NCBI GenBank assembly: GCA_026770585.1
Contig: MU646511.1
Coordinates: 397,744-424,976 of the forward strand
Source of the DNA: Baffinella frigidus
Lineage: Eukaryota; Cryptophyceae; Cryptomonadales; Baffinellaceae
DNA length: 27,233 nt
Reading direction: 5' to 3'
Part shown: positions 9,542 through 26,599 of the stretch, piece after piece
Layout of the letters: every line of letters starts with the position of its first letter
How positions within the stretch are numbered: position 1 is the stretch's first letter
Translations under genes and position numbers: made by a program
The notes under the pieces: model-generated
Told to the model about the DNA's origin: nothing
The model's input: only the letters and a program-made list of their open reading frames with translations
The model's database searches: none

Positions 9542-12500
9542 GCGAGTGTCCAACCCGCTTGCGTTTCTGCTCTCATCAGGTCTTTTACGCGCTAGATGGG
9601 CGTCTTGATGGACGTCTATGCGCTGCTACTGCCGGTTCAATCGACGCTTGCGTCTATGACCTCTCTCGTCGCCCCTGCTCAGCCACCCTATTTTCGTCCT
9701 CATCCCTTCTGTCACTTCTATTCCAGGAAACTCGATGGCGGTGCTCTCTCTCTTATGCACGCAGGATGCAGGCGGGACGGACGCCCCTGCTGACACCCCC
9801 AGCCCTGCACATGCGCCCTGCAAACTGTTGGGTTTACAAGGCTGCTGTTGCAGCAGTACCTGCAACCTGCTAGGGTCCAGGGTGTAGGCTGTGGCTGTGT
9901 AGGCTGTTGGGTACTGGTGTACGGTTCAGTGTACACTGAAGTCCTAAACCCTAACCCTCAACCCTCAACCCTAACCCCTCAACCCTCACCCCTCACCCTT
10001 CACCCCTCACCCCTAATCCCAAACTCCAAATCAGGAGGCAGCCTCTCCCAGCCCCTCCCACCCCTCTCCGGTTCAGCCCCTCCCACCCCTCACCAGGGTT
10101 TGGGGTTTAGGGGTGAGGGTTGAGGGTGACTTGGGTGTCAGGGTGTCATGGTGCAGTCGAAGTCTCTTCGGCGGGCAGCTCGCCGAGAGGCGGGGGGGGG
10201 AAGTAAACCCTCAACCCTCAACCCTCAACCATCAAACATAAACCCTAAAACCTAAACCACAAACCCTGAACCCTGGCCCCTAAAACCTAACCCCTGAACC
10301 CCAACCCCTCAACCCTGAACCCTGGACCCTAAACCAGGGGGGCTCGTTCAGCTCGTTCAAGGGCAGGGTCGTACCAACGGGCATCGAGGAGCGCCCCTAT
10401 CCCTATTTCAAAATCTGACAAACCGGCGCCTTTCCTGGCACTAAAAACGCGCGGTTTGATGATTTGGGCGGTGGCGTGGTACAAAGGCTGAAGCGGGATG
10501 GGGGATTCGCGGCAGGGCGACGCGTTCCGCAAGCGGCGCGCCTCGATCGAGCGCATCGAGAATGCTCAACGACACGCTGCGAGTCAGGCCCAGGTACTGT
10601 CAACACCGTGCACGTGCATGCCCACCTTGAGCCATTCGGTAACGGTGCACTTGTCAGCACTAAAATGGCAATGCCAGGTCTTTTAAAGGACGATTTGTTT
10701 TTGCATTATACATTTTGTGGGGAGGCGCGTCCAAACAAGGTCTCCGTTGAAGTTAGCTTCTCGCATGGCAGGTGGGCACGCGGGAGGTGGGCACGCCAAG
10801 CACTCCGGAGCTACGCACCAAGAGTAGCGAGGCCCAGCTGGGAGCCGGAGCCGGAGAAGGTCCTCAACCCTACACCCTAGGCACTCAACGCTAAATACTC
10901 AACTCTGAACCCTTAACCCTAAACGCTAAACGCTAAACACTACACACGCAACACTGAAGCAGGAAGAGGAGGCGGCATTCTTCATGGGGTCAGACCTTTT
11001 GCGCGGTAAACACTCAACCCTCAACCCTAAACTCTGAAACCTGAAACCTGAACCCTCAACCCCAAACCCTAAACCCTAAACCCTAAACCATACACCCCAA
11101 ACCCTAAACCCTAAACCCTAAACCTGCACCCCTAAACGCTGAACGCTAAACGCTAAACTCTAAACTCTAAACACTCTAAACTCTAAACTCTAAACGCTGA
11201 ACCGGGTTAGGTTGAGCGAGGAGCGGCGCTCGTCGGACCCGGGCATGGCTCTCCCGCCGCAAGACCAGGCACCCTTTCTAACCCCTAACCACCCTAACCA
11301 CCAACCCCTAAACCCCTCTAAACCCTCAACACCAACCCCTAAACATCAGACCCGAAATAACAACGACTGGGCCCTAATCCGCACCCCCAGACACCTCTCC
11401 CGCCGCAAGACCAGGCACCCGCTCTAAACCCTCAACACGTATCCCTAAACAGCAAACACTAAATAACAATTAGTGGGCCGTCAGCCGCACCCCCTTACAC
11501 CTTTTCAAAAGGCTGGGGGGCCTCTCTCGAGGTCTCCTTGGTGCGCACCATGTGAGGTTAATAAAGAAGAAGAAGAAGCCTTACACCTCTCCTGGCGGCA
11601 CTCCCGGCGCAAGAGCAGCCAGGCGCAACCGCCATGCTCCCACGGCGGAGCAGGCGCCATGCTCCCACACCAAACTCTAAACCCTGGATCCTACAAAAGT
11701 AATCCCTAGACCCTAACTCTCTAAACCCTAAACCCTATACCCTAAAGCCAAAAGCCAAAAGCCTAAAGCCTAAACCCCAAACCCTAAACCCTAAACCCTA
11801 GTAATCCCTGTTTGCCCGTGTCCCCTCAGGGTGCATCGACCCTTACCCCTAACCCCTAACCTCCAACCCCCAACTATGAACCCCAACCCCCAACTCCCAA
11901 CTCCCAAACCCCTAAACCCTAAATCCGGCAACAGGCAAATCCCGACGAGGGGCAAGCAGCGAGCTATTCCGGGGTTTCAGCCAGCAGGTGATGGCTCTCT
12001 ACAGTATATCCTATAGTATATATTGTAGTATATTCTATTGGATATATTATAGTATACAAACATCTATAGTATATCTGCAGTATACTGTATTGATGTTCGG
12101 CGTGAGCGTTCGCGGGGTTTCCGCATGCATGGGATGCCCACGCCACCCTCTATAGTATATCCTCTAAAGTATATCCTATACAACATCTATAGTGTATCCT
12201 CTGTAGTATATCCTATGCAACCTCTATATTATATCTTCTATAGTATATTCTATACAACCTCTATAGTATATCCTATATAGTACATCCTCTATACCTTCAG
12301 GTATGTACAGCGGGGTTTCTGCACGCAGGAGAGGCGCACCTCACACACCCCTGAAGGAGACAAAGGTTCAAACGTATCGTCAGTAAAAGTATTGATTAAT
12401 TGCTTTTGGGCAACGAAAAATTCCTACACAACACAACTCGCGCGATGGCGCTTGTCCGGATTCCGCACACCACCGTCCAGGAGTTTGTGATTGTATGGAT

Positions 12501-15500
12501 ATCCAATCAATTGGGTGTCCAAGAAATTGCATGAGGATCCAATACATGTCGTCCGTCATGCACAAGTTTTTGAGTGGATGGGTATCCAATAAATTGGGCG
12601 TGTTTTCATGCCAGTGTTTTTACCACAAGGTAGGCTACGAGGGTTTCAGATACGCTAAATGTAGCGGCAACGTGACCAAATTTGCATCAGAAAATCCTTA
12701 AAGTCAACTACCCCGGGTCAAGTTGACCTTTGATGAAAGGTCCGTAGTCCACCGTGTGGTTTATCCAATAAACGCTGTTCCGCAGCAGGGTGCTGTTCAT
12801 GGTCAACCCTGAACCCTGGACCCTGAACCCTGAACCCTGAATCCTAAACCCTGAAACAGGGGGGCGATGTTTATGGTCAACGGCAGCGCGCGGCGCTCGA
12901 GCGGGGTATCCGAGGCATCGGTAACCCTGCACTCTAATCACCCAAGTGGACCAAAGAAAAATTGAAACCAAACCATCTTCTTCGAGGGACGGTCGAAAAT
13001 GCCCGGCTGTCAGAACGAAATGGCTCAGCCAACATTCTCGATTTGGGGTGCGTTTGAGGGCTACGCCCAAAGCAAGAAGGGTAGGGCTCGGCGTTCGAGC
13101 GGGGTATCCGAGCCATCGGTAACCCCCAACCCTCATCCCTCAACCCATAACCTTGAACCTTGAACCCTCAACGCTAAACACTAAACACTAAACCATGCAC
13201 CCTAAACCTAGACCATATACCATACACGTTACACCCCACACCCTACACCCTACACCCTACACCCTAAACCCTAAACCCTCAACACCAATCCTGAGACCCT
13301 CAACCCTACACACTAAAGCATGAACCCTGAACTGTAAACGCAGCACCGAAAAGCAGGCGGGGAGCTTCTCAGGCCCTTCATGGAGGCGTGGCTCACTGGA
13401 GGTGCTAACCCCTCACCCCAAACCCTGAACCCGAAACCCTAAACCCCGAACCCTAAACCCTAAACCCTAAACCTTGAACCCTAATCTCCAAACCCTAAAC
13501 CCCAACCCCCAAACTCTTAACCCTAAACCCCAAACCCCAAACCCGAAACCCCAAACCCTAGGCAACCTCCGACGAGGCCTCTGCGGGGAGGCGTGGCTCG
13601 ATGGAGGCACCAGCCCCAAACCCCGAACCCTAAACCCTAAATCCTAATTCCTAAACCCTGAACCCTAAATCCTGAACCCAAAACACTAAACCAGAAACTC
13701 TAAACCCTAAACCCTACACCATAAACCCTAAACCTTCAACCATAAACCCTAAACCCTCAACCCTCAACCCTCAACCCTAAGCCCGAAACCCGAAACCCAG
13801 AAGCAGGGGCGCTCGGATGCGGCGCTGCTCGCGCACGCGTCGCAGAGCCCCATGGTCTGGGAACCCTAACCCTCAACCCCAACGTCTAGTTTAGGGTTGA
13901 AACTAAACCCTGCTGTCTGAACGCTGAACCATCAAACCTCAAACCTACGCCCTCAACCCGGATCCCCAAACCCTGCACGCTAAAGCCCGAAACCTCGAAC
14001 ACTGAAACCTGACCATCCCTGTTTCTGTTTCCTTCCCTAAACCCTAAACCCCGAACCCTAAACCTTTTACCCTAGACCCTAAGCCCCACGCCCTAAACCC
14101 TAAACCCTGCACCCTAAATCCCTAAATCCTAAAGCAGGGGAGGAGGCGGAGCTCGACATCAGAGTCTGCGTTGCTTGCGGGAGGCGCGGTACCACCAACC
14201 CTCAACGTTCAACCACCAGTTTTGTAGGAGGCGTACACGTATTGTCGATGGGGCTCGATACAGGAGCCTCGGAGGGTCGAGGGCGTTACCACCAGCCCTC
14301 ACATAAAGCCCAGATCACTTCTGGCCTTCTATTTTTCTGGTAAAAGGACGGCGGAATCCATCGTCCTTATACTGGTACAAAGACCAAACCGATTCAGGAT
14401 TTGGGCCTGCTGTGAGGGCAGTGCGGTACCCTAGACCCTGTACTCCGAAATGCTCTCTATAATGCGTGTACGCTCTGTCAAATACTTGTACGCGCTCTAC
14501 AATAGATGTACGCCCTTTACAATACGTGTACGCTCTTTGCAATACGTGTACGCCCTTTACCATACTTGCACTCGCCCTTAAATACTTTTTTGGCGCTCTA
14601 CAATACGGGTACGCCCTTTACAATACTTGCACGCGCCCTGCAATACTTTTGCGCGCTCTACAATACGTACGCGCGTGTAGACTACACAACACGGCGAGGC
14701 AACGCACCGTTGCCTTAAGTTGACAGACGTTCCACTTTTGCTTTGCAAAGTTCCACACGCGACGTTTGTCTCGGTGGGCAGCGCTCTTCCACACCCGCCA
14801 GTTCTGCCTCAGTAAAACTGGGCTTGCCATAAAACACATTTAGAGCATAAAATCCGGTAGAAAAGGGCAACTAAATTGCTTTGATGACGAGCGCAGTTGT
14901 ATTGAGGCAGAGAGGGTCGAGGGTGGCGCGGAACCCCAAACTTTCTTCTCTTCTTCTTTATTACTCCCATCCTAGAGATGCATGATCCAGACGTGTATGC
15001 GCCTTCAGACGAGCCTTCCTCGGGAAAGTACGTCATCTTCTAAGGTGGAGGTACCCTAAACTTTAAACTCTGAAACGCGCTCTACAATACTTGTACGCTC
15101 TCTGAAATACGTGTACGCTCTCTACAATAATTTTACCCGCTCTACAATACTTGTATGCAAAACACTGTTGGTTGATAAGATGTATGTGTACCGAGCAATT
15201 CTGAATTATCACCAAAAAAATAAATGGACCGATCTGTGAAGCCCTCTGTGTGGTCCGTTAACGCTTGAAACAATACGAAAGCAGACGAGCCTGGTACTAA
15301 AGTGTCAAGTTTGGGGGTAGGTGGCGAGCAAGCGGCGGAGTAACAAGAAGGAAGATGTGGAGCGCGAGAACCAGTCATTGCGCATCTCTGTCGCACAACT
15401 CATGGTACCCCCGACCCCCGACCCCNNNNNNNNNNNNNNNNNNNNNNNNNNNNNNNNNNNNNNNNNNNCAACCCTAAACCCAGCCCCCTAAACCCTGCAC

Positions 15501-18500
15501 CCTGAACCCCTAAACCCTGAACCCTAAACCCATAAACCCTGTACCCTGAACCCTAAATCCCAAATCCTAAGCCCCAAACCCTATAACTACTCTACATTAC
15601 CCTGGTCTAAAACTTGTCAACCCGTGCAGGACGCGAACACGTTAGGGGTTCAATGTTCGTGTTTCGGAGATAGGATTTCGGGGTGCGCTAGACATTGTTA
15701 GGGTTGAAACAGGAGGGGACACGCAAGCCCGCCCAGGACTCCAAAACGAGGTTACTCGCGCAGATCGCTTCAAGTCGATTTTCCCGCTGAACCCTGAACC
15801 CTAAGCCCGAAGCCCCAACCATTAACCCTGAACTCTGAACCCTAAACATTAAAACCGTGCAGGACGCGAACACAAGGTTACGCAAGGAAATCGCCTTGAC
15901 GTATTTGCTTCACAAATTCCTTGATTTACTACACAAATTCTGCAGCAACGAACACATTTACCACACAAATTTCTTCGTAATAAAATATTTTACTACACAA
16001 ATTATGTAGTGATGACGGTCTCTCTCTGCAGGACGCGAACACGCAGCTGCGCGCACAGAACGCCGCGCAGGATGCGGACCGCGAGTGGTACGTGGCTCGC
16101 CACGAACAGGAGCGCAACTCTGTCGATGACCAGGTTCCAGCTCCGCCTCACTGGGGTTCACGGACTATTCTTAAGTTGACATGCTAGGTTCGCGGTACAA
16201 ATTCGTCAACGTCGGAGCGGGAAAGAGCCCGGGCTCGCCAAAGGACCAGGTGTGGCCACGCTGCATACAATCTATACGTAGTGGCTTAAAACCTCTTTTG
16301 GAGGTTTTGAACGAGACCTGGTCGTTTAAACCAAGATAGTTGAAACCAAGGCCGCAGTACTCCTCGCGTGGTGGAAATCTCTTCTGGAAATCGCGGAGCA
16401 GTTTGAGGGTTGAGGGTTGCGGGTCGCGGGTGTTGGGCAGGGTTTAGGGAAATCGCCAACCCTAAACCCTCAACTCCAAACGGTCGACCCGAAACCCTGA
16501 AGCACACACCCTAACCCCAGGTTGGTCACCTCTCCTGGCAGCTGGCCGCGCTCCTCGGGATCCGGCAGGCTCAAAACCTGCACGCGGATATAACTGTTTT
16601 GAACCACCACCGTACACACCTGGACGCGACTGCAAATTACCAGCGTATAATCTTGGACGCGCCTGTACAACTACCCTACAAACCTGGACGCGACTGTACA
16701 ACCCGGCATTTAAACAAGGGCCTCGGCCAGCCTCGTGGCTGTTTCACCCGGAAACCCCAGACCCTGACCCCAAAACCTAGAGAGAGTTGATCCGCCTGCG
16801 TTGATTGTAGATTTTGGGCCAGCCCGGATTTTCTCGAGGTCGTTTCGGGAGGTCGGGAAAGGAAAGCATCTGGAAAAATGAGAAAAATGTGTCATCTTAT
16901 GGGTGGGGGGTGCATCTTGCCATCAAATCAATGCGAAACCATAAAACTTTAGATGGACGCAAAAAATATCGATATTTTTTCGACCTCCCGACCTCCCGAC
17001 ACCGACCCAAAATCCGTGCTGACCCGAAATCTACAATAAACGCAGGTGGAGCAACTCTCTCGGCAGCTGGCCGCACTTCTTGGGATCCGGCAGGCTCAGA
17101 ACCTTCAAGAAGCAATCGCCATCGTTTCCTCCCCGAAGAATGGGGGGCACCTCAACTCGAAGCAAGGGGGGTACCTCAGAGCCGCCTTTGACGCGCTGGC
17201 CCCTAAGGTTTTCAGAAAACCCTCAACCCTGAACGCGGGCTCCTTTCTGCTCCAAAGTTGACGAATGTGCAGCACGCACCCAGCATGTCAACTTAAGCAT
17301 AGTCAACAGCCGATCCCAGGATCTAGGAAGGGCGAGGGGCGCGGCTCAACTGGTCTAGCTCTGTCTCAAGTAGTAAAACTCGGCTCGCCATGAAACACAT
17401 TTAGAACAGGAAATGTAGTAGAAAAGTGCAATTGAGATACAATTATTGCGAGACCAGGTTTTGCTCAGGCAGAGCTAGAAGGCGCTCTCTTGTCCTGGCT
17501 CTGCCTCACTCAAGTTGACCCACTATTCGCAAGTTGCCATGCTGGGTTTGCGGTACGAATCCGTCAATTTTGGTGCATTAAATATCCCGGGCTTATCGAA
17601 TTGGAGAGCTCAAATAGAATGAGACAGAGCTACGTTTCCAACAACGGCTCCAAGCGTTGTGTACCCCGAAATTGTTTTCAACTAGATCTACGGAGTTATC
17701 CGGGACAAGACATGGACAAGACATGTACCTGCATGTAAACCATGAACCCGAACCCCGAATCCCCAAACTCTAAACCCGGGTGAGCGCGGGCTCGACGCGG
17801 GTGGGTCTCGTTTTGCCTCAGTCTATTTGGTCTCCCCGATTCCAGAGTTGTCCGGAATGTTACATGTACCTACATGTAAACTGTACACCCAAAACCCTGA
17901 ATCCTCAACCACACGAAAATGCTAGAGGGGCCTATTTGAAAATGCTTTCTTTTACACGTGGGCATTTGAGTAACTTTCGTGAGGTTGGTCACGTAATTGG
18001 GCAAAACCAGTCAAGACACGAGGTTGGTTACGTTATCCTGGTACCAATATTTACAACCCCACATGTAAATATGACCCTCCAGCATTCTCGAGTGGAATCC
18101 TGAACCCTGGCCCCGAGTCAGAGTGGGCTTGACGCGGGAGGGCTCGCAGAAGCCACCAAACGTCTCGGGGCTCCCAGGCTCTCTCACGTCGAGGCCACTG
18201 AGGTGCAAAACCCGAAACCCCGAACCCCAAACTCCAAACCACACACCCCAAACCTCAGACCCCAAACCTCAAACCCCAAACCCCATACCCCAAACCCCAA
18301 ACCCCAAACCCCAAACCACAAACGACAAACCACAAACGACAAACCCCGAACCCCTACACCCTGAACTCCCAACCCCCAAACCGCACACTCCAAACCCCAA
18401 ACACCCAACCCCAACCCTTCAAACCAGGCGCTGCGAAGTCTGGACCGAGATAAGGACGAGAGGCTCACCTTCCTGGTCCTACCTCAACACCCCTAATCCC

Positions 18501-21500
18501 TAGTCCCTAATCCCACACCCCACACCCCACACGCTCAACCCTCAACCCTTAACCCTCAACCCTCAACCCCAAACCCTAAACCCTAAACCCTAAACCCTAA
18601 ACCCTAAACCCTAAACCCTAAACCCTAAACCCTGATCCCTAAACCCTAAACCCTAAACCCTAAACTCTAACCACCAAACCCTCAACCCTACACCCCACAC
18701 CTCAAACCCTCAACATGTGCATACAACCCACCTGTGCATTAACCCTACACCCTAAACACCAAACCCTTGACCCTCGCAGGAGTTTTCGCGGGTCTCGGAG
18801 GTGGTGCCAGCGGCGCGGGTCCCGCCCGAAAAGCTCGCGCTCTTCCTCGAATCTGTGTCGTGCTCCCAGGTGCAAGGTTTGGGGTTTAGGATTTAGGGTT
18901 TAGGATTTAGGGTTTAGGGTTTCGGGTTGTTGCTCCGAGGTGAGGCGAGGGAAGCCCCTAGGGCCAAACGAAACATATGCCCAAATCTTTAATCCTTGAA
19001 CCATGCACCCTAAACCCCAAGCTTTAAATCCGACGCAGGCACCTGCGCCGAAGAGACGGTGGCATCGAGCAGCGGGCGCTTACTCCCGCGCCTTTCTGAC
19101 CTGCCTTTCTCTGTGCAGGGTTCCTGGCTCAGGATTTCGGGGTGCAGGGTTCACAGTTCATGGTTCTGGGTGAGTGTGCAGGGTCCTGCTAAACCATGCA
19201 CCCGAAACTCGCAGGTGCTTGCAGCAGCGCTGGCATGAAGCAGCTGCTTGCACTCCCTCCCGCGTCTTTCCGATATGCCTTTCTCTGCGCAGGGTGTGGG
19301 GTTTAGGGTTTTCGGGTTTGGGGTTTGGTGCCTGAAGCATGTACCCCACCGTGGAACAGCCCCGCCGGCAGGCTCGTGAACAGACGCCGAAGCCAGACGG
19401 TCGGTCGTGACTGCCTTGCGTGTTCCTATGTAGGTGCTTGCAGAGGCGCTGGCATCGAGTAGCGGGAGCTCTCTCCCGCGCTTGTCCGACCTGGCAAGCC
19501 TCAGCGAGGAGCAGGTTCGAACTCTAAACCCTAAACCCTCAACCCTCAACCCGAAACCCGAAACCCAAACCCCAAACCCGAAACCCTAAACCCTAAACCC
19601 CAAACCCTAACCCCAAACACAGATCACAGTCGCGTGCCACTCAGCGGCCGGGGTTCTGGCACCCCTGCTCTGCGACTCTCTCCCTCGTCTGCTGCACGCG
19701 ACACTGCTGCCACCAACAGGAAACACACCCTAAACCCTAAACCCTAAACTCTAAACCCTAAACCCTCAACCGTACACCCTACACCCTGAACCCTAAACCC
19801 TAAATTCTAAACCCTAAACCCTAACGACTCCGTGCCTCTTCTTCTGCACGCGCCCCGACCCCCTCCGCCAAGAAACCCCAACCCTGAACCCTAAACCCTA
19901 AACCCCAAATCCTGAACCTTGAACCCTGAACCCTAGCCCCTAAACCTTAAAACCTACACCGCACACAGCAGGGTACAGCGCAGCGGCAGGCGATCCATTC
20001 ACGCTCCCGCCTCTCCGGCGCCTGCTCGCGGGAAGCAACAAGGAACCCAACACCCAAACCCCAAAGGGTGCCGAGCCTCAGCTGCAGGGGCTGGCGTGGG
20101 GTGGGGGGAGGGCGTTTGGAATGGCTGCTGCCAACTCTGTGGCGTGGCTGGGGCACCCCGCGGTGCAACCCTACACCCTACACCCTACACCCTACACCCT
20201 ACACCCCGAACCCTAAACCCCACACCAAAATCCTAAACCCTAAACCCTAAACCCCACACCCTAAACCCTAAACTCTAAACCCTAAACCCCAACCCCCAAA
20301 CCCGAAACCAGGAGGAGGGGACAAAGGCGGGTGCTGAAGGGGGGATGTGGGCAGAGGGGTTGGGGCTGTGGGCTGCGATGGAGGCTGAGCACGTACGCGC
20401 GCCCGAACCCCCCCATCCCTCTTTACGCTTTGGTCTTTAGGTTGTTAGGATGTTGGGGTGCACGGTTTGGGGTTTTATCAAACCCCTTCAGATAAACCCC
20501 CTTTATCCTATACCCTAAATGTGGGGGTGACGAGGGCTGCGATGGAAGGCGAGGATGCATGCGCGCCGGAGCCAGCAGCCAGGTCAGGATTTCGGGTTTC
20601 GCGCCTGAACCCCAAGCCAGTTTAGGGTTTATGGTCAGTGTTGAGGGTTTATGGTTTCACGCCCGAACCAGCAGCCCTTTTAGTGTCCAGGGTGTTAGGA
20701 TGTCAGGGTTTAGGGGTCCGAGTTTTATGAAATGTATGTGGGGGTGCTTGGCGACGTCTCATTAAAAAAATCCCGGACGATACACATCGCGAGACCCTCA
20801 ACTGAGTCCTTAACCCTGAACCCCAGACCTTTTCAAACCCTTTGGCAGGGCGGGGAGGATGCACAGCGGCATTTCAAGACGTGCCGCTGGGGGCCTTCTG
20901 GAGAATGCTACCAGGTGCTTTCTACTTCGGAAACACTTTCCATTTCAAATGCCGTTTGGTGCTATCTTCAGGCTGGAGTTTTTGATCTTAGCCTTGACCT
21001 AGCTTTACCTTAGAACAAAAACCACCCCTACGATAGCAAAAAGGTGGTTTTAATTCAACATGTTTCCATGTGAAATGGTGGACATGAAACCCGACACCCA
21101 AACCTCTGCAAGATTCTTTCCACGATTTGGGGGGGTCCGCTCTTCTTGGATTACGGTACACACCTCAGGGTTCAGGGCTCAGGGTCAGGGTTCAGGGTGT
21201 AGGATTTCATAAGCTCGTCCCTTCTCAAACAATCTCGAGCCTTGTCAAGCCGTCTCGACGGTGATTCATAAGAAAGGAACACTCGGTGGGCTTCAGATTA
21301 TTGTTTTGAATTCCGCTCAGCTGCAGTTCCTCAGTAAAGCAACTCTCTCGCTCTCTCTCTGCACAGCCAGACCAGCTCTGCGTCAGAAGGGTTGACAGAC
21401 TATCCTGAAGTTGACATGGTTGGTTGGTGGGCAGTCGCGGGCACTCGACGAGTGGCTGTTCGCAACCGTGAAAGAGGAAGACTGGCCTTCCCATCTGCAT

Positions 21501-21896
21501 GGTCAACACACACGACTCCACGTTCTCCGTAAGCCATACTCCCTTGACCCTAATTCCGAAACCCGGAACCCGGCACCCGAGAAACGAACTACGAAACCCG
21601 ACACTCGAAAAACCCGAAACCCGAAATCCAAACCCGAAACCATCTGGCGTCAACAGTAACCAATCTCTGTCTCTCTCTCTCTCTCTCTCAGCAAAGGTGC
21701 CTAAACCCTAAGACCCAAACCCTAAACCCTAAACCCTAAACATACACCCTGAACCCGCATCTTCCTCTCTCAGCGAAAATGCTTCGACGGAGGAAGGAAG
21801 CAGCACAGTCGAAACACCCTAAACCCCAAACCCTCAACCCTCAACCCTAAACACTGGGCCGCAAACCCAAACCCGGCACCGTGTGTAGACAGTAAC

Positions 21897-21940
<44 letters not shown>

Positions 21941-24900
21941 TTCTCTCTCTCAGCGAAAGAGGTGCGGCGGAGGAAGGAGGCAGCCAGGGCGCTGCTGACG
22001 ATCGAGGAGGTGGCTGCTCTTCGTCTTGCTACAGGTTTGAACCCCTACACCCTTAACCCTGAACCCTAAAACCTTAACGCTAAACCCTACACCCTAAACC
22101 CTAAACCCTAAACCCTAAACCCTGTATCCTAAACCCTAAACACTCAACCCCAAATCCTGAACCCTGAACCCTGAACCTTGAACCCAAAACGCTGAACGCT
22201 AAACCCTGAACCCTGAAGCCTGAACCCCGAACCCAAAACCCCAAACCCCAACCCCCAAACTCCAAACAATAAACCCCCAACCCCCAAACACGCTCCCGGC
22301 AGGCCCAATGAGAGAGGTCTACAACCTTTTTCTTCGACCGCACAGCACACCAAACCCCTCAACCCTCAACCCCAAACCCCAACCCCCAACCCTCAACTTC
22401 AAACCCGAAACCCGAAATCCGAACACTCGAACGTTGCAGGCCCAATGCGAGAGGTCTACAATCTCGTGCTCAGATCGCACACCTCTTCCAACGTCCCTTC
22501 CGTCGGTAATCCTTGCACCCCAAACCCTAAACCCTGTACCCTATAACCTATACCCTATACCCTATACCCTATACCATATACCCTATGCCATACACCCTAT
22601 ACTTTATATCATATACCCTATACCCTATACCCTACTCCCTATACCCTGTACCCTAAACCCGGAACCCTATAACCTTTACCCGATACCCTATACCATATAC
22701 CCTATACACTCTATACCCTTTATCATATACCCTATACCCTATACCCTATACCCTGTACCCTGTACCCTATACCCTGTACCCTACAACCTATACCCTACAC
22801 CCTATACCCTACACCCCATACCCTACACCCCATACCCTATACCCTGTACCCTATACCCTGTACCCTGTACCCTGTACCCTGTACCCTGTACCCTGTACCC
22901 TGTACCCTGTACCCTGTACCCGATACCCAGAACAACGTGCTTCGAAGGTTTTTTGGGGGCTCAGCCACCGAATTTTTGTTACCCTATCCGCAGGAACCCC
23001 CCTTTGTTGCTACGGGGTTGGCTACCGTAGGGTCCTATTGATTAGTACTCCATGGGATATTCAGGAAATCTCTTCGTAGCCCGCTGTGTGTCTATACCTG
23101 AATCCCGAAACCCGAGTCCCGAAACGCAAACCCTGAATCCCGAATCTCGAAACGCGAATCCGGAATCCGGAATCCCGAAAGAACGGAACAAGCGGTACGG
23201 CGCGCCCTGATCAGCGCGCTCTTCGCCTTCCCAGACGTAACCCCGGGGAGGAGATACGTACGTGTAGACGCAGATTTGTACCGGGATATGGACGTGTGGA
23301 CTGAGATATGGGCGGAGATATGGACGTGCTGGCGGAGATATATTCGAGATATACCCGAAATCTGAATGACGAACACAGGGGACAACCGGTACGGCGCGAC
23401 GCTCCGCATCCTAATCTCCGCCCTCGCCAAATTCTCGCTTTCCGCAGCCTTATCCGTAGGAAGACCTGACGGGGTATTCCTCGTGCCTTGTTGGAGCCGT
23501 TTGGTCCAAACCGCGGGTTGCTGGTGGCAGGGGACAACCGGTACGGCGCGACGCTGCGCGTGCTCGTCTCCGCCCTTGCCAAGCTCTCCTCCACACTCGC
23601 TCCCGGGTTCAGACCCTAAAACCTAAACCCTGAACCCTAATCCCTAATCCCTAAACCCTTAACTCTAAACCTTAAACCCTTAACCCTAAACCCTAAACTC
23701 AGAACCCTGAACCCTGAACCCCAAAACCCAAACCCTCCTGAACCCGAAACCCGAAACCAGGTCCGAGGCGGGCTCGTTCCGCACTCCCGAGGCGGGCCCG
23801 GCCCAGAAAGACGGTTCCGAGGCGGGCCCATCCCCCCAAAACGGTCCCGAGGCGGGCCCGTCACCAAAAAAGGGTGCTGAGGCGGGCACGTCCCATGAAA
23901 AGGGTGCTGAGGCGGGCCCAAGCAGGTGCCCTGTGTTGTACATCGCGCTTGCGGGGGGCGCGGTATTCCCCAACCCTCAACCCCAAAACCCCCATCCCTC
24001 TGTTGTAAAACCTGAAACCTTATCCCTTGATTATCCCTAACACTGAACCCTGTACCCTGAACCCTGAACCCTGAACCCTGAACACCCAACCCTAAACCCT
24101 AAACCCTAAACCCTGAACCCTAAACCCTAAACCCTAAACCCCAAAACCTGAACCCGAAACGCAAACCCCCAGGTACCCGGTGGCCTTGCATCGACGGGGG
24201 GGGCGCGGGGGGCGGTTGATACGGGGCTGCTCTTGGCGACCGAGGACTTAGTGCAGGTGCAGGGGTTAGGTGTCAGGGTTTCAGGGTCTAGAAGTGAGGG
24301 GTTAGGGGTTAGGGGTTAGAGGTTAGGGGTGAGGGGTTGAGGGTTGGGAGTTAGGGGTTAGGGGTTAGGGGTTAGGGTTTAGGGGTTAGGGGTTAGGGGT
24401 TAGGGGTTAGGGGTTAGGGGTTAGGGGTTAGGGTTCGGGGTGATGGCATAGCCATCCCCAAGCGCTCTGAGCAGGCGGTGTTTCTCACCCCCACTCTTCT
24501 CTCACCGCGGGGTGTATGTCTTCAGGTGTAGGGTGTAGGGTGTAGTGTACAGGGTTTCGGGTTCTGCCCTCGCGTCTCTCCCTGCCCTGCTCTTGACAAA
24601 TTGGGGGTTGGGGTGTAGAGTGCAGGGAGCAGAGTTGAGCAGTAACGGTGGATTGTGCGGCAGGCAGTGGTGGTGGCGGTGGCTGCCGGGCAGGGGGATA
24701 CCGAGGGGGGTGACGCCATTGCAGACCACCTCCCTACGGTTGTTAACCCTAAACCCTCAACCCTCAACCCTCAACCCTAAACCCTAAACCCTAATCCCCG
24801 AACCCGCAACCCTAATCCCTAAACGCCCAACACTAAACTCTAAACCCTGAACCCTAAACGTAATCCCTGAACCCTAAACCCTGCACCCCAATCCTTAATT

Positions 24901-26599
24901 ACGAACCCCTGACCCCGAAACCCGCAACCGAATACCTAAACCCCAAAACCTGAAATCCCAAATACTAAAAAACCTAAATACCTGAAACCAGAAAACCCTA
25001 AAACCCAGATGACCGCAGGTACTGGAGGTGCACAACGCGGCAGGCGCGGTCAGCCTCGAGTGGATCGCCCAGGTGTCAACTCTAACCCCTAATCTCTTGA
25101 CCCGAAAGCCGGACTCCAAAACGCTAAACCCGAATTCAGACACCCGAAAACCAAAAACCGAAACCTGAGCTCCAAACCTCTAACCCCCAACCCCTTATCT
25201 CCAACCCCCAACCCCTAATCTCCAACCCCCAACCCCTAATCCTTGGTCCCTAATTTCTAAACCTCAAACATCAAACCGCAAATCATGAACGCTAAAGTGC
25301 AAACCGCAACGCGGCAGACGGCAGGCGTGAAGGCATGGATGTTCCCCCCTGGCGCAGAGGTGGTTCTCTGCCCGCCGCCGCCACGCCTGGTACACCCTAG
25401 CTCTGCCTCATTCTATTTCGGCTGACCAATTCGGTGAGCCCGTTTTCGTTCCCGCTCGGGTGTGCGGTGCAAATTCGAATTTGTACCGCCTACCCAACAC
25501 GTCAACTTGCGGATAGTCGGACAGTCGACCAGAATGAGGCATAGATAGGCTCCTCTGCGAGGCGCCGCCGCGCCTCAAACCCGAAACGCAAAATGTGAAA
25601 CACGAAACCCCTATACCCTAAACCCTAAACCCTGAACCCGAAACCCCAAACCTTAAACCCTGAACCCTAAACACTAAACATGAAACCCTAAACCCTAAGC
25701 ACGAAGCCTCAACCCCTAAACAATAAAAGCCAAAAACCCAACCCCCAACCCCCAAACTCCAAACGAGGTGGTGACAGAGGCGGGGCCCGTTCTCCTGTTC
25801 TCAACCCTCGATCCTCAACCCTAGCGCCAACACACTCACACCAAACAGCAAACACCCAACACGAAAGCAGGCGTCGACAGAGGCAGGCTTCACCAAACTC
25901 CAAACCAGGAGGTGACAGAGGGCCCGTGCTCCTGCTCTCCACGGAGAGCTACATGCACTCAATATATCGATTCGTTCATTATTATTTACCCCGAGTTTAT
26001 TAATCATTACTGCTCACCGCGGAGAGCAATCATTGCCCCATGGGGCATTTATTTGTACCGGGATGAGCGTATTTTCCTGTAATAAACGTCGCTATTGTTT
26101 TCTGGCGGTAATAAACGTCGCTGTTGTTTCCCGGTGGTAATAAACGTCGCTGTTGTTTTTCGGTGGTAACAAGTAGCGGCATTGATTTCAGGTGTCAACT
26201 GACGCGGGGCCCGTGCTCCTGCTCCAAGCGCGCGTCGAGGCCCACTTTGCCCCGACCCTGCTCGAGTCCCTGCACCGCAACAAGGGCGGCGAGGGGGGCG
26301 TGCGTGTGGAAGAGGCCTCCGAGCGGTCCCGAGGCTCTGGCGATACAACCCCCGGAGTGACGTTACACGAGGGGTCCCAGAGAGGCGGGGTTGCGACCAA
26401 CCCCAGAGAGGCGGGGTTGCGACCAACCCAACCCCAGAGAGGCGGGGTTGCGTCGTCCCGAGGCGGGCCTGTGCCCCCCCGAGGCGCGCAGGGGGGGGGG
26501 GTCAAAGAGGAGGAGGAGGAGGAGGAGTTCCTGCCATCGTCGGAGATCCCCGATAAAGAGGACGTGTCTCACGGGGTGCCGCCCCTCATCCTATTCTCC
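9431..26599 (+). CDS. Long multi-exon gene: coiled coil plus C-terminal ADP-ribosyltransferase-like domain
   Basis: Gene-level proposal from exons read by eye. The exons from 15321 to 26599 (listed separately) are mutually phase-compatible and give about 658 codons. They comprise a leucine-zipper/coiled-coil segment, an Ala/Leu-rich helical middle, a Gly/Ala linker and a divergent ART fold. Candidate exons from 9431 to 14188 extend it upstream, but no joining exon from phase 1 to phase 0 was found before 15321, so two genes are possible. Introns are long, filled with CCCTAAA-type repeats and partial exon copies. The stop codon was not located: either splicing continues past 26600 or the frame reads through to TAA at 26966. 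The ART fold transfers ADP-ribose from NAD in active members. Here the catalytic motifs are altered, so a pseudoenzyme or binding role is more likely. Confidence 0.55.
9580..9870. other. Unassigned open stretch after exon 1
   Basis: After an acceptor-like TCATCAG the plus frame is open, with VFYALDGRLDGRLCAATAG, then becomes unconvincing. It may be a short exon ending before about 9670. No family is recognised. Confidence 0.25.
9942..10340. repeat. Telomere-like arrays with orientation switch
   Basis: CCCTCAACCC/CCCTAACCC units (about 9942-10025), then a G-rich inverse (about 10097-10131), then C-rich units again (10205-10336). A possible small exon (SKSLRRAARREAGG, 10157-10201) sits between them after GGTGCAG, with GTAAAC as donor. 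Confidence 0.7.
10516..10593 (+). CDS. Exon: basic/charged coiled-coil segment
   Basis: 26 codons between GCGGCAG| and CAG|GTACTG, phase 0 at both ends: GDAFRKRRASIERIENAQRH then AASQAQ. Charged helical composition with clear coding character amid non-coding sequence. Confidence 0.65.
10600..10790. other. Possible small foldback sequence
   Basis: GCATGCCCACCT near 10617 is mirrored by AGGTGGGCACGC near 10768-10780. The intervening 150 bp is non-coding. It may be another short inverted-repeat element, with weaker ends than the named families. Confidence 0.35.
10861..11215. repeat. Telomere-like arrays flanking a small exon
   Basis: CCCTAAA-type units, with CGCTAAA and TCTAAAC variants, interrupted by the candidate exon 10963-11005. 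Confidence 0.8.
10963..11005 (+). CDS. Candidate exon: acidic helical segment
   Basis: AAGCAG|GAAGAG ... TTGCGCG|GTAAAC encodes EEEAAFFMGSDLLR plus one base (phase 0 in, phase 1 out). Small, but both splice sites are good and it follows naturally from 10516-10593. Confidence 0.5.
11211..11640. other. Candidate exon with two degenerate copies
   Basis: Around 11221-11268 one frame reads ERRSSDPGMALPPQDQ, ending CAG|GC. The segment CTCTCCCGCCGCAAGACCAG (about 11251-11268) recurs near 11397 and, more diverged, near 11590 (TCCCGGCGCAAGAGCAG). Reading frame and boundaries are not settled. The rest is telomere-like sequence. Confidence 0.35.
11935..11987 (+). CDS. Candidate exon, frame ambiguous
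   Basis: CAACAG|GCAAAT ... CCAGCAG|GTGATG. Entered in phase 1 it reads KSRRGASSELFRGFSQQ and leaves in phase 0; entered in phase 0 it reads ANPDEGQAASYSGVSAS. The first suits a preceding phase-1 exon. Related GGGGTTTC.GC segments follow at about 12109 and 12307. Confidence 0.45.
11999..12300. repeat. AT-rich minisatellite (TATAGTATATCC units)
   Basis: Imperfect tandem units of about 13-15 bp, CTATAGTATATCCT and variants, in an otherwise GC-balanced intron. They are interrupted by a segment (12085-12145) resembling the upstream exon 11935-11987. Confidence 0.8.
12350..12780. other. Unique intronic sequence with a short direct repeat
   Basis: No exon recognised. TGGATATCCAATCAATTGGG (12494) recurs as TGGGTATCCAATAAATTGGG (12578), about 85 bp apart. 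Otherwise nothing notable. Confidence 0.4.
12860..12920 (+). CDS. Candidate exon, duplicated downstream
   Basis: GAAACAG|GGGGGC ... GGCATCG|GTAACC. One frame reads GGDVYGQRQRAALERGIRGI (phase 0 to 1); another reads GAMFMVNGSARRSSGVSEAS (phase 2 to 0). The last 40 bp recur near 13085-13115 with the same GTAACCC donor, and the first 25 bp recur near 12784-12806. Confidence 0.45.
13357..13401 (+). CDS. Candidate exon (ELLRPFMEAWLT)
   Basis: AAGCAG|GCGGGG ... CTGGAG|GTGCTA. In phase 1 it reads GELLRPFMEAWLTG, a good amphipathic helix. A partial copy at about 13573-13606 keeps the same frame (GEAWLDG) and ends GGAG|GCACC. Confidence 0.5.
13807..13854 (+). CDS. Candidate exon (GRSDAALLAHASQSPM)
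   Basis: AAGCAG|GGGCGC ... CCCATG|GTCTGG, 48 nt. The phase-0 reading looks most protein-like, but the neighbouring candidates need phase 1, so its use is uncertain. Confidence 0.35.
14138..14188 (+). CDS. Candidate exon (EEAELDIRVCVACGRR)
   Basis: AAGCAG|GGGAGG ... AGGCGCG|GTACCA, 51 nt, phase 1 in and out, compatible with 13357-13401. Short related pieces (GGGTCGAGGGCG, TTACCACCA) follow at about 14274-14296. Confidence 0.45.
14457..15155. repeat. ~18 bp minisatellite in two blocks
   Basis: Units such as CTCTACAATACTTGTACG occur tandemly at about 14457-14680 and again at about 15075-15153. Unrelated sequence and a family C foldback element lie between the blocks. Variants ACGTGTACG and ACGGGTACG alternate. 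Confidence 0.8.
14802..14912. mobile_element. Foldback (MITE-like) element, family C, copy 1
   Basis: CTGCCTCAGTAAAACTGGGC at the left; TTGAGGCAGAG at the right is its inverted end. The interior AAAACACATTTAGA and GTAGAAAAG are shared with 17355-17478. Confidence 0.75.
15321..15404 (+). CDS. Exon: basic stretch and start of leucine zipper
   Basis: GGGTAG|GTGGCG ... CTCATG|GTACCC, 28 codons, phase 0. A basic run (SKRRSNKK) precedes VERENQSLRISVAQLM. With the next exon, Val, Leu, Leu and Leu fall exactly seven residues apart, as in bZIP zippers, including the common E-N-x-x-L-R arrangement. The bZIP basic-region asparagine is not seen, so a plain coiled coil is equally possible. Confidence 0.7.
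15426..15468. other. Assembly gap (43 N)
   Basis: 43 undetermined bases in telomere-like sequence, within the intron after the leucine-zipper exon. Confidence 0.99.
15469..15900. repeat. Telomere-like intron with two partial exon copies
   Basis: CCCTAAA-type units at 15469-15590 and 15786-15850. The exon start GTGCAG|GACGCGAACAC appears at 15630 and 15863, before the full-length exon at 16032. Both copies decay within about 10-25 bp. Confidence 0.75.
16032..16133 (+). CDS. Exon: coiled-coil continuation
   Basis: CTGCAG|GACGCG ... GACCAG|GTTCCA, 34 codons, phase 0. It reads DANTQLRAQNAAQDADREWY, then VARHEQERNSVDDQ, continuing the zipper heptads. The next 3' sequence, GCTCCGCCTCA, is the end of a family C element, so the element begins about 5 bp after the donor. 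Confidence 0.8.
16137..16250. mobile_element. Family C element, partial, directly after a donor site
   Basis: AGCTCCGCCTCACTGG ... GACTATTCTTAAGTTGACAT ... GCGGTACAAATTCGTCAA match the left part of 17498-17630. The right terminal repeat is not clear. Confidence 0.55.
16521..16595 (+). pseudogene. Upstream copy of the next coiled-coil exon (echo or alternative exon)
   Basis: CCCCAG|GTTGGTCACC opens a frame VGHLSWQLAALLGIRQAQNL, matching VEQLSRQLAALLGIRQAQNL of exon 17046-17207. About 53 of 67 bases agree, and roughly half the differences are synonymous. The frame stays open through ADIT|GTTTTG, a plausible phase-0 donor. It is either a usable alternative exon or a recent relic. Confidence 0.6.
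16796..17045. mobile_element. Family D foldback element ending at a splice acceptor
   Basis: 250 bp with about 37 bp inverted ends (about 33 matches): CTGCGTTGATTGTAGATTTT at the left, the complement of AAATCTACAATAAACGCAG at the right. The right end coincides with the acceptor AACGCAG|GTGGAG of exon 17046, so the terminal repeat supplies the AG. It shares interior sequence with 6152-6489 in the other gene. This is the arrangement of an introner-like element. Confidence 0.8.
17046..17207 (+). CDS. Exon: coiled coil and hydrophobic segment
   Basis: 54 codons, phase 0, from ACGCAG| to CCTAAG|GTTTTC. VEQLSRQLAALLGIRQAQNL, then QEAIAIVSSPKNGGHL and GGYLRAAFDALAPK. The first half continues the coiled coil; the second looks like a Gly-rich loop and helix. 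No family recognised for this part. Confidence 0.8.
17355..17478. mobile_element. Foldback (MITE-like) element, family C, copy 2
   Basis: Ends CTAGCTCTGTCTCAAGTAG and TGCTCAGGCAGAGCTAG are inverted repeats, 124 bp in all. The interior matches 14802-14912. Confidence 0.8.
17498..17630. mobile_element. Foldback (MITE-like) element, family C, copy 3
   Basis: GCTCTGCCTCACTCAAGTTG at the left and AATAGAATGAGACAGAGC at the right, only about 20 bp from copy 2. The interior GCGGTACGAATCCGTCAA is shared with 16137-16250 and 25397-25548. Confidence 0.75.
17909..18095. mobile_element. Foldback (MITE-like) element, family B, copy 2
   Basis: CCACACGAAAATGCTAGAGG at the left; CCTCCAGCATTCTCGAGTGG at the right as the inverted end. 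About 187 bp, ending 26 bp before exon 18122. Confidence 0.8.
18122..18202 (+). CDS. Exon: helical segment (SGLDAGGLAEATKRLG...)
   Basis: GAGTCAG|AGTGGG ... ACTGAG|GTGCAA, 27 codons, phase 0: SGLDAGGLAEATKRLGAPRL, then SHVEATE. A partial copy with the same frame (GLDAGGS) lies at about 17788-17811. Confidence 0.7.
18205..18775. repeat. Telomere-like arrays on either side of exon 18428
   Basis: CCCCAAACC-type units (18205-18420) and nearly perfect CCCTAAA units (18570-18665), the purest run in this gene. Confidence 0.85.
18428..18475 (+). CDS. Exon (ALRSLDRDKDERLTFL)
   Basis: AACCAG|GCGCTG ... TTCCTG|GTCCTA, 16 codons, phase 0. Charged helix with both splice sites present. Confidence 0.65.
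18780..18869 (+). CDS. Exon: helical segment (EFSRVSEVVPAARVPPEKLA...)
   Basis: CTCGCAG|GAGTTT ... TCCCAG|GTGCAA, 30 codons, phase 0. It continues LFLESVSCSQ. Strong coding character, immediately followed by G-rich telomere-like units. Confidence 0.8.
19023..19300 (+). pseudogene. Two degenerate copies of exon 19434-19514
   Basis: Copy 1 (about 19036-19118) and copy 2 (19216-19293) share GGCATCGAGCAGCGGG/GGCATGAAGCAGC and CTCCCGCG(C/T)CTTTC with the exon, each preceded by GCAG|G. Copy 2 has TGA in frame after VLAAALA. Copy 1 is frame-disrupted near its start. Confidence 0.7.
19434..19514 (+). CDS. Exon (VLAEALASSSGSSLPRLSDL...)
   Basis: TATGTAG|GTGCTT ... GAGCAG|GTTCGA, 27 codons, phase 0, ending ASLSEEQ. 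It is the third and only intact member of a three-copy series. Confidence 0.75.
19623..19719 (+). CDS. Candidate exon with non-canonical donor
   Basis: ACACAG|ATCACA opens ITVACHSAAGVLAPLLCDSL and continues PRLLHATLLPPT. Good coding character, but the end is CAACAG|GAAACA, with no GT. A GA donor, as reported in some dinoflagellates, would fit. A partial copy follows at about 19827-19877. Confidence 0.45.
19972..20042 (+). CDS. Candidate exon, related to 19623-19719
   Basis: CAGCAG|GGTACA in phase 1 reads YSAAAGDPFTLPPLRRLLAG, then SNK, ending AAG|GAACCC (again GA). It aligns loosely with HSAAGVLAPLL...LPRLLHA of 19623-19719, and the phases fit (1 in, 0 out). It may be a second exon or a third copy. 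Confidence 0.4.
20088..20162 (+). CDS. Exon: Gly/Ala-rich segment
   Basis: GCTGCAG|GGGCTG ... CCCGCG|GTGCAA, 25 codons, phase 0: GLAWGGGRAFGMAAANSVAW, then LGHPA. Confidence 0.65.
20360..20760. other. Intron with exon-like copies and G-rich telomeric fragments
   Basis: GGGCTGCGATGGA occurs at about 20371 and 20536, followed by GA..CGTACGCGCGCC and GAGGATGCATGCGCGCC. The second shares the GEDA-coding segment with exon 20849-20914, so both look like degenerate copies. Short GTTTAGGG-like fragments occur at 20620-20720. Confidence 0.45.
20849..20914 (+). CDS. Exon (GGEDAQRHFKTCRWGPSGEC...)
   Basis: TTGGCAG|GGCGGG ... TACCAG|GTGCTT, 22 codons, phase 0, ending YQ. Cys- and Trp-bearing segment of unknown role. 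Confidence 0.65.
20915..21434. other. Intron, mostly unique sequence
   Basis: Contains ACCACCCCTACGATAGC and GCAAAAAGGTGGT (an imperfect inverted repeat near 21020-21050), a short GGGTTCAGG array (21165-21205) and, from about 21375, family C sequence (CTCTGCGTCAG ... CTATCCTGAAGTTGACATG) running to the next exon. Confidence 0.5.
21435..21501 (+). CDS. Exon: pre-ART segment (SRALDEWLFATVKEEDWPSH...)
   Basis: GTGGGCAG|TCGCGG ... CTGCATG|GTCAAC, 22 codons plus one base (phase 0 in, 1 out). The frame continues perfectly into 21954. The acceptor lies in or beside family C sequence. Confidence 0.75.
21675..21815 (+). pseudogene. Two partial copies of exon 21954-22034 with its CT-rich acceptor
   Basis: AGTAACCAATCTCTGTCTC ... 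CTCAGCAAAGGTGC (to about 21702) and CTCTCTCAGCGAAAATGCTT ... CGGAGGAAGGAAGCAGC (about 21762-21805) repeat the polypyrimidine tract, the CAG|CGAAA acceptor and, in the second, the RRRKEAA-coding part. Confidence 0.7.
21954..22034 (+). CDS. Exon: first helix of the ART-like domain
   Basis: CTCTCAG|CGAAAG ... GCTACAG|GTTTGA, 81 nt, phase 1 in and out. KEVRRRKEAARALLTIEEVA, then ALRLAT. The stretch LTIEEVAALRLATGP (ending in the next exon) matches the N-terminal 'LT.EE..ALR..TG' helix typical of algal/protist ADP-ribosyltransferase domains. A (CT)n tract of about 50 bp precedes it. Confidence 0.8.
22303..22350 (+). pseudogene. Upstream copy of exon 22440-22505 (echo or alternative exon)
   Basis: CGGCAG|GCCCAATGAG gives PMREVYNLFLRPHS against PMREVYNLVLRSHT in the exon. 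Most base differences are synonymous (AGA/CGA, AAC/AAT, CTT/CTC). No GT donor was found before the sequence dissolves into CCCTCAACC units. Confidence 0.65.
22440..22505 (+). CDS. Exon: ART-like domain, second segment
   Basis: GTTGCAG|GCCCAA ... TCCGTCG|GTAATC, phase 1 in and out: GPMREVYNLVLRSHTSSNVP, then SV. In ART domains this is the region after the TG turn leading into the helix bundle. Confidence 0.8.
22510..22925. repeat. Telomere-variant minisatellite (CCCTATA / CCCTGTA)
   Basis: About 59 seven-base units, first CCCTATA-rich and from about 22845 an almost pure CCCTGTA run. It lies within the intron between two ART exons. The 240-codon open frame across it is a by-product of a stop-free repeat. 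Confidence 0.9.
22930..23530. other. Intron with dispersed repeat and two exon copies
   Basis: Bases 22978-23090 resemble 2931-3060. Partial copies of the next exon lie at 23183-23232 (frame lost) and 23379-23450 (frame intact: DNRYGATLRILISALAKF). Between them is a run of GGA(C/G)(A/G)TATGG-like units (23280-23350). Confidence 0.55.
23531..23606 (+). CDS. Exon: ART-like domain, third segment
   Basis: GTGGCAG|GGGACA ... TCCCGG|GTTCAG, 76 nt, phase 1 in, phase 2 out: DNRYGATLRVLVSALAKLSS, then TLAP. It corresponds to the helix preceding the first catalytic strand in ART domains. Confidence 0.8.
23761..23962 (+). CDS. Exon: in-frame 10-residue repeats leading to ART motif 1
   Basis: ACCAG|GTCCGA ... 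GGCGCG|GTATTC, 202 nt, phase 2 in, 0 out. Five imperfect 30 bp repeats encode GSEAGPSPQN-type units; the exon then reads RCPVLYIALAGGA. The position of the motif-1 arginine (YRG in active ARTs) is occupied by Ile (YIA). The repeats form a disordered insertion before this strand. Confidence 0.8.
23970..24172. repeat. Telomere-like array
   Basis: CCCTGAA and CCCTAAA units, C-rich strand on plus, up to the next acceptor. Confidence 0.85.
24173..24256 (+). CDS. Exon: ART-like domain, motif 2 region
   Basis: CCCCAG|GTACCC ... GTGCAG|GTGCAG, 28 codons, phase 0: VPGGLASTGGARGAVDTGLL, then LATEDLVQ. The usual Ser-Thr-Ser/Thr motif of the ART core aligns with LAT, so its serine is absent. Confidence 0.75.
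24260..24440. repeat. G-rich telomere-variant array (GGGGTTA)
   Basis: About 20 GGGGTTA units on the plus strand, opposite in orientation to most arrays in this gene. Confidence 0.9.
24664..24738 (+). CDS. Exon: ART-like domain linker
   Basis: GCGGCAG|GCAGTG ... CCTACG|GTTGTT, 25 codons, phase 0: AVVVAVAAGQGDTEGGDAIA, then DHLPT. Confidence 0.7.
24740..25018. repeat. Telomere-like array
   Basis: CCCTCAA/CCCTAAA units grading into AACCTAAATACC-like degenerate sequence. Confidence 0.8.
25019..25072 (+). CDS. Exon: ART-like domain core strands
   Basis: CCGCAG|GTACTG ... GCCCAG|GTGTCA, 18 codons, phase 0: VLEVHNAAGAVSLEWIAQ. It aligns with the 'VLE...SL.W.SQ' strands of algal ART domains. Confidence 0.75.
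25318..25389 (+). CDS. Exon: ART-like domain, motif 3 region
   Basis: GCGGCAG|ACGGCA ... CGCCTG|GTACAC, 24 codons, phase 0: TAGVKAWMFPPGAEVVLCPP, then PPRL. The catalytic E-x-E of active ARTs aligns with A-E-V, so both key glutamates appear lost. A partial copy of the 3' end lies at about 25551-25577. Confidence 0.75.
25397..25548. mobile_element. Foldback (MITE-like) element, family C, 8 bp after a donor
   Basis: CTAGCTCTGCCTCATTCT at the left, AGAATGAGGCATAGATAG at the right. The centre is a near-perfect 26 bp palindrome around AAATTCGAATTT. It begins 7 bp after the exon end at 25389. Confidence 0.8.
25570..26075 (+). pseudogene. Telomere-like intron with three partial copies of the last exon
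   Basis: GAGGTGGTGACAGAGGCGGG (about 25764), GGCGTCGACAGAGGCAGG (about 25870) and GGAGGTGACAGAGGGCCCGT (about 25908) precede the full exon at 26192 (GTGTCAACTGACGCGGGGCC). The first keeps VTEAGPVLLFS in frame; the third keeps CCCGTGCTCCTGCTC. None has both splice sites. Confidence 0.65.
26076..26191. repeat. Tandem 3' splice-site repeat
   Basis: Four units of about 30 bp, GGTAATAAACGTCGCTGTTG plus a T-rich tail. The last, diverged unit (GGTAACAAGTAGCGGCATTG) ends ATTTCAG| at the acceptor of exon 26192. Confidence 0.8.
26192..26599 (+). CDS. Exon: end of ART-like domain and acidic/low-complexity tail
   Basis: TTTCAG|GTGTCA ... TTCTCC|GTAAAT, 136 codons, phase 0. PVLLLQARVEAHFAPTLLES, then LHRNK, matches the terminal strand and helix of ART domains. 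Then follow Arg/Gly repeats from a 26 bp DNA repeat (AGAGAGGCGGGGTTGCGACC, 26379-26450), a seven-Glu run and SSEIPDKED. If the donor at 26600 is not used, the frame runs on to TAA at 26966 through a family B element. Confidence 0.7.

Follow-up and report, generated by a model that had tools for sequence, protein, structure and literature searches.

Partial exon copies in the introns of a cryptophyte gene follow a half-exon rule and recur in unrelated genes

Introduction

Why should part of an exon reappear in the intron beside it? This question is raised by a 27,233-nt stretch of Baffinella frigidus DNA (the window, meaning the whole stretch that was analysed). An earlier note, made from the letters alone, described a gene in which most exons were accompanied by partial copies in the flanking introns. 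It ascribed these copies to recurrent local duplication between telomere-like repeats, either feeding alternative exons or left behind as splicing decoys.

A search for the phycoerythrin alpha family (PF02972) gave 11 matches in the genome, compared with 0 of 14 controls; as the controls were all prokaryotes, this difference says little by itself. To our knowledge, the family is restricted to cryptophytes. One translated frame matched 19 distinct solved sequences that are, by name, phycoerythrin or phycocyanin alpha chains, several of them named as cryptophyte, and on these grounds the genome is that of a cryptophyte alga.

Results

The plus-strand gene at approximately 10516-26599 was modelled by hand as 18 exons, and the exons with partial copies, hereafter echoes, are listed in Table 1. 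We read its putative product, from the translation, as a coiled-coil-like N-terminal part together with a weak EF-hand-like stretch. A Pfam search of the gene gave no family above the cut-off and only this weak EF-hand, and when 248 aa of its joined exons served as the query of a protein search, none of the 7995 candidates scored was a relative at E<=0.001. The single N stretch of the window, at about 15426-15468, lies away from the echoes. A 20/60-bp tandem repeat (CTCTACAATACTTGTACG-like) occupies two intron patches, at 14452-14668 and 15075-15155. The intron between the VEQL echo and its exon holds other repeats, which hide the original duplication unit. An inverted-repeat element at 16780-17045 (arms ...GTAGATTT / AAATCTAC..., arm score 48.5) ends beside the VEQL acceptor and possibly supplies an acceptor; by eye, an apparent relative of it lies in a WD40-like gene of the window at about 6148-6490.

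Table 1. Exons, echoes and other copy pairs of the window gene (positions in the window)
Feature	Position	Strand	Observations
Exon DANT (DANTQLRAQN...)	16032..16133	+	open; gcag acceptor, gttcca donor; last of three copies with a common acceptor
Upstream echo of DANT	15625..15641	+	acceptor and about 12 nt; score 17, p=0.0015
Upstream echo of DANT	15858..15895	+	acceptor and DANTxLR; score 16, p=0.0024; also viewed by codon
Exon VEQL	17046..17207	+	coiled-coil part by our own reading
Upstream echo of VEQL	16521..16591	+	acceptor retained; score 43, p=0 of 3323 random pairs
Exon SGLD	18122..18202	+	precedes the weak EF-hand-like stretch (E=0.047, below cut-off)
Upstream echo of SGLD	17783..17810	+	score 16.5, p=0.0015
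Exon VLAE	19434..19514	+	modelled exon
Upstream echo 1 of VLAE	19044..19103	+	score 34
Upstream echo 2 of VLAE	19215..19279	+	score 27.5; filler start common with echo 1 by eye
Exon AKEV (KEVRRRKEAARALL)	21954..22034	+	modelled exon
Upstream echo of AKEV	21774..21808	+	cut end 1 nt before masked CCCTAAA array
Exon PMRE	22440..22505	+	modelled exon
Upstream echo of PMRE	22303..22344	+	cut end 4 nt before array
Exon GDNR	23531..23606	+	modelled exon
Upstream echo of GDNR	23379..23436	+	acceptor retained; score 42
Upstream echo of GDNR	23185..23233	+	gapped alignment; score 20
Final exon VSTD, start	26192..26293	+	open frame runs on beyond 26293
Upstream echo of VSTD	25768..25800	+	score 18
Upstream echo of VSTD	25913..25937	+	score 19
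EEGT stretch, candidate exon	20312..20410	+	modelled end without GT donor; either copy could be the live exon
Copy of EEGT 3' part	20534..20573	+	score 22
Copy pair member (partner 13080..13125)	12882..12927	+	donor-like GGTAAC end; score 36; provisional gene model
Copy pair member (partner 12882..12927)	13080..13125	+	score 36; provisional gene model
Copy pair member (partner 13575..13631)	13371..13426	+	score 29.5; alignment enters unmasked array letters; provisional gene model
Copy pair member (partner 13371..13426)	13575..13631	+	score 29.5; provisional gene model

The window was compared with itself after masking of CCCTAAA-type repeats, which left 75 islands. Among 176 island pairs less than 500 bp apart, 13 scored at least 18 in direct orientation, compared with 3 for the reverse complement and none for the reversed sequence, although some of the 13 were intron repeats and not exon copies. 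Among 2442 pairs more than 1 kb apart, 3 direct and 4 reverse-complement pairs reached this score. When the copy pairs of the earlier note were ranked against 3323 pairs drawn at random within the gene, 16 of 20 stood at p<0.01, while four fell short: 19827/19623 (p=0.064), 19972/19623 (p=0.015), 20550/20849 (p=0.064) and 21690/21954 (p=0.14). The 25870 pair passed solely through window overlap with the copy at 25913, leaving 15 independently confirmed pairs. The claim that most exons have copies was too strong. Echoes with an SW score of at least 17 were found for 7 of the 18 modelled exons, or 9 of 18 if the weaker DANT and SGLD pairs (p<0.01) are included; the pairs 12860/13085 and 13357/13573 come in addition and lie in a provisional gene model. 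With the EEGT stretch at 20312 set aside, it is true of the window that the intact exon comes last and that the copies keep the acceptor end. These results demonstrate that the copies of exons in the neighbouring introns are real.

We examined the geometry of the echoes in 43 hand-modelled exons of three genes, namely the window gene (18 exons) and two CCT genes, L032 (17) and L033 (8), which we take to be CCT-alpha-like and CCT-delta-like, respectively. The CCT loci came from a profile search and were not chosen for echoes. On either side of each exon, 900 bp were searched with every modelled exon masked and a score threshold of at least 17. Echoes, 20 in total, were found for 15 of the 43 exons (7/18 in the window, 5/17 in L032 and 3/8 in L033), so that 8 of the 25 exons of the two unselected genes carry such scars. 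As controls, 86 reverse-complement flanks yielded no such match and 530 distant stretches yielded 2. All 13 upstream echoes were centred in the 5' half of their exon (0.11-0.43), and all seven downstream echoes, of which one (EEGT) is ambiguous, in the 3' half (0.56-0.90). Were side and half independent of each other, so perfect a split would be expected by chance once in 77,520, or once in 27,132 with EEGT left out, in figures for which related echoes of one exon are partly dependent.

The splice dinucleotide was usually kept on the intron-facing side, with AG before 9 of the 13 upstream echoes and GT or GC after 5 of the 7 downstream ones, the GC of EEGT being doubtful. One downstream echo in L033 (d2) was scored as having lost its donor; its exon and the echo both run on as CAGGCACG once a 3-nt insertion is allowed. 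None of the 20 echoes in the three genes aligned to its exon at full length. The echoes of the window typically consist of an intron end and the neighbouring part of the exon, beside which a complete exon remains, and in other genes the mirror image was seen, in which the intact exon comes first and the donor end is retained.

The same pattern was found elsewhere in the genome: besides the two CCT genes, kinesins and dyneins carry partial exon copies. In nine other stretches (L002, L003, L005, L006, L007, L012, L013, L017 and L018), local pairs reaching at least 20 numbered 94 in direct orientation, ordinary tandem repeats included, compared with 14 for the reverse complement. An overlap of 12 positions or more between neighbouring profile matches was seen in 12 of 59 kinesin pairs (19 or more in nine of these) and in 4 of 9 dynein N2 pairs. 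For the dynein AAA_6 domain, 1 of 9 pairs showed such an overlap by eye. None of 6 CCT pairs overlapped by at least 12 positions in this test, which is coarser than the exon-echo search, and HSP90, with a single match, was uninformative. These results indicate that half-exon copies are not peculiar to the window gene but recur in unrelated genes.

Three motor-protein loci carried tandem units, and within a locus the units share filler. At L038, four copies of the acceptor and 5' part of a kinesin P-loop exon lie upstream of that exon. The repeat has a period of 255, and identity to the live exon is 38, 55, 58 and 58 of 58 positions in the four copies. At L039, two copies of the 3' part of a dynein exon, with the donor, lie downstream of it, and a kinesin exon at L040 likewise has copies of its 3' part with the donor behind it. 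Between the units, substitutions were found at 10 of 247 positions in the exon parts vs 138 of 676 in the fillers, in four comparisons of which two come from L038, whose filler has internal repeats and aligns poorly. Taken by locus, the difference gave p=0.024 at L039 and p=0.14 at L040 alone. Relatives of the L040 filler occur in the window and in L017, and one or more of the L038 filler in L013; for the L039 filler, the compared sequences contained none away from its own locus. Relatives were thus found for two of three fillers, few and diverged, in a comparison that covered a small part of the genome.

Tandem units were also seen in the WD40-like gene (WD40 by reading) on the minus strand of the window at about 5000-8600. 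They have a period of 236-241, lie at 6515-7142 and 7343-7806, and are identical at 171/225 and 180/224 positions in two neighbouring unit pairs. By reading, each unit consists of an exon and an intron. They may represent the same kind of duplication retained whole, which would be tolerable in a repeat protein.

CCCTAAA-type arrays make up 41%, 49% and 21% of the introns of the three genes on the C-strand. Among the upstream echoes, 6 of 13 had their cut end no more than 12 nt from an array; among the downstream echoes, 1 of 7 did. As contact with arrays is about equal to their share of the introns, random breakpoints in introns would suffice and a causal role is not needed. The arrays were therefore rejected as special duplication ends, and the part of the earlier note that placed duplication between telomere-like repeats was unsupported as regards the cause. 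In the introns of the window gene (10594-26191), L032 and L033, the arrays are strongly biased towards having their C-rich strand on the sense side, with 9630 vs 1075 bp summed over the three genes, one of which is on the minus strand. Arrays in the G-rich sense would bring in TTTAG acceptors as well as GT donors, and the CTAAC-like units resemble branch points. Array orientation may be set by selection for splicing.

The coding content of the echoes was compared with that of the exons. In the 16 echo rows of the window, substitutions at codon positions 1, 2 and 3 numbered 55, 41 and 76 of 234, 239 and 233, respectively. The pooled amino-acid changes were 78, compared with 97.9 expected from random substitution, and 0 of 2000 simulations were as low. 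The third-position share was 76/172, or 73/161 without the row DANT 15622, the one of 16 that is out of register. A share near half is close to that expected from one neutral and one constrained copy, so constraint on the live exon can account for part of the low amino-acid change; the VEQL pair, with 1, 3 and 12 mismatches at the three codon positions, is more extreme. With this third-position share, strong coding constraint on the echoes as a group was not upheld.

Intron gain by duplication of exon edges was examined with a zero-offset test on 36 introns, after 4 of 40 had been dropped for lack of a GT or GC donor in the model or, in one case, because of a provisionally modelled neighbour. 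The mean identity over 12 positions was 3.83 vs 3.72 in one comparison and 4.17 vs 4.44 in the other. At least 8 of 12 positions were identical in 2 of 36 introns each, vs null rates of 0.007 and 0.016, which leaves room for single cases. With no shift in mean identity, intron gain by exon-edge duplication was rejected as a general rule. In L032, the intron start at 8107-8118 (GTCATTCCCAAC) and the start of the next exon at 8418-8429 (GTGATCCCGAAG) are identical at 8 of 12 positions, and this intron is a candidate for formation by a recent exon-edge duplication.

Discussion

The recurrent local duplication proposed in the earlier note is supported, and other genes of this genome show it too. 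We consider the echoes to be, probably, fossils of small tandem duplications whose breakpoints lay on either side of a splice site, one exonic and one in the neighbouring intron. Duplication of an intron end together with the first part of an exon would leave an upstream copy made of the acceptor and the exon's 5' part, and duplication of the last part of an exon together with the intron start would leave a downstream copy made of the 3' part and the donor. One complete exon with both splice sites would persist in either case, so the change would be nearly neutral and the intron would merely become longer. If a whole exon were duplicated with both of its splice sites, the mRNA would change, and such a duplication would usually be removed; the WD40-like gene of the window may be a telling exception. 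If only duplications that leave one complete exon survive, upstream copies are expected to be 5' halves and downstream copies 3' halves. Once two copies exist, the unit could multiply into a series of echoes with a common filler, and old echoes would decay and become buried in CCCTAAA arrays and other repeats. The spliceosome would skip the echoes, each presumably having one splice site only. This account starts from what was directly observed, namely the partial copies, the rule that their geometry follows, the units in tandem and the presence of such copies in several unrelated genes.

Slippage or the fill-in repair of staggered breaks, among other processes, may underlie the duplication step itself. 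Fill-in of staggered breaks by CST-Pol alpha-primase yields small tandem duplications in mouse and human cells, according to the sections consulted of PMC8355091, and by analogy the same activity might act at staggered breaks in cryptophytes. That the exon parts diverge less than the fillers is not predicted by simple duplication with neutral decay and counts against this best explanation; gene conversion from the live exon, selection on the echoes or fast turnover of the filler are possible reasons. The pooled deficit of amino-acid changes and the strong third-position bias of VEQL also weigh against it, in part explicably through constraint on the live exon.

Other explanations were weighed against small tandem duplication. 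It is rather unlikely that a mobile element or other filler was inserted at a staggered break so that the exon copy is a long target duplication (about 25-95 bp by eye), with telomere-like arrays as one class of filler, perhaps added through telomerase and C-strand fill-in. The fill-in reported for mouse and human cells would suit such an event as well. Filler does separate the echoes from the exon, the fillers of L040 and L038 have relatives elsewhere, and arrays abut 6 of 13 upstream cut ends compared with 8% of random unmasked positions. However, this contact equals the array share of the introns and falls to 1 of 7 among downstream echoes, the fillers vary by locus, with the L039 filler confined to its own locus among the compared sequences, and direct repeats of this length exceed transposon target duplications, of which we know of none as long. 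An assembly error that joined paralogous loci or haplotypes is highly improbable. In its favour, all-N sequence made up 11 of 20 sampled 10-kb stretches (6 adjoining the window and 14 elsewhere), though these are not necessarily assembly gaps. Against such an error, the copies are interleaved singly with the exons along the gene, many have diverged by tens of per cent, the half-exon rule holds for several genes that lie on different contigs, and across the whole genome (382 Mb, 1364 contigs) VEQL matches a single site at E<=0.001.

The echoes could also be functional, either as alternative (mutually exclusive or regulated) exons or as decoys retained to tune splicing, and we regard this as improbable. 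Splice sites are frequently retained, the exon parts are more conserved than the fillers, and the pooled deficit of amino-acid changes is echoed by individual copies with fewer changes than random (VEQL, p=0.021; PMRE, p=0.024; one VLAE echo, p=0.030; one GDNR echo, weakly, p=0.094). However, the other GDNR echo shows no constraint (p=0.9955), and the same structures occur in exons of housekeeping chaperonin, kinesin and dynein genes. Mutually exclusive exons would be complete, with both splice sites and the same phase, whereas none of the 20 echoes spans its exon, many by reading lack the second splice site, and some have a stop or a frame-breaking gap. The proposal that the copies feed alternative exons is thus unsupported, while splicing decoys, judged from the sequence, would fit as a by-product.

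A broader possibility, which we hold only tentatively and think doubtful, is genome-wide growth of introns by repeated copying of an exon edge with its splice site, with gene conversion or selection keeping the exon parts similar while the filler drifts. If this is true, exon definition is being tested naturally and on a large scale in this genome, where as many as four decoy acceptors can precede a single true exon; at the kinesin locus, two of these four show no difference from the live exon across 58 nt. Such decoy splice sites occur naturally and could be used to ask how the spliceosome separates a real exon from half an exon. The process would also give introns a simple route to grow out of exon sequence, and in such genomes gene prediction may call false exons.

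Several known systems resemble the echoes in part. Like introners (Gozashti et al. 2022, PMC9860276, in the parts consulted), they expand introns with repeated DNA across a genome; unlike introners, their sequence derives from the local exon and not from a mobile family. The main text of that paper mentions no cryptophytes, Guillardia, cryptomonads, telomeric sequence or tandem duplication. Exonize reports full-exon duplication in about 4-7% of vertebrate genes, and in the sections consulted its catalogue (PMC12343006) contains neither a half-exon rule nor a cryptophyte, whereas half exons of a cryptophyte are concerned here. A review (PMC3443670, consulted in part) lists tandem duplication and double-strand-break repair as mechanisms of intron gain. 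Small duplications with direct repeats beside introns are common to those mechanisms and the echoes, but the zero-offset test gave no mean shift here and only a few single introns in the tail.

We found no description of half-exon echoes in a cryptophyte among the papers listed in literature searches, mostly outside subscription journals, and the consulted sections of two cryptophyte genome papers (PMC12220804 and PMC12747079) do not mention them. A tandem duplication across an intron-exon boundary has been described in a potato RdRp gene (Ma, Lan and Niu 2016, PMC4974935). Judging from the sections consulted, the duplicated segment there also consisted of an intron 3' end and the 5' part of an exon, the acceptor signals were inherited, and a small exonic remnant of the upstream copy turned intronic. 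Unlike that single case, in which a new intron was created, many genes are involved here, the mirror image at the donor also occurs, and it is mostly existing introns that seem to have been lengthened. The closest published case found is thus one potato gene, whereas here the copies recur across unrelated genes.
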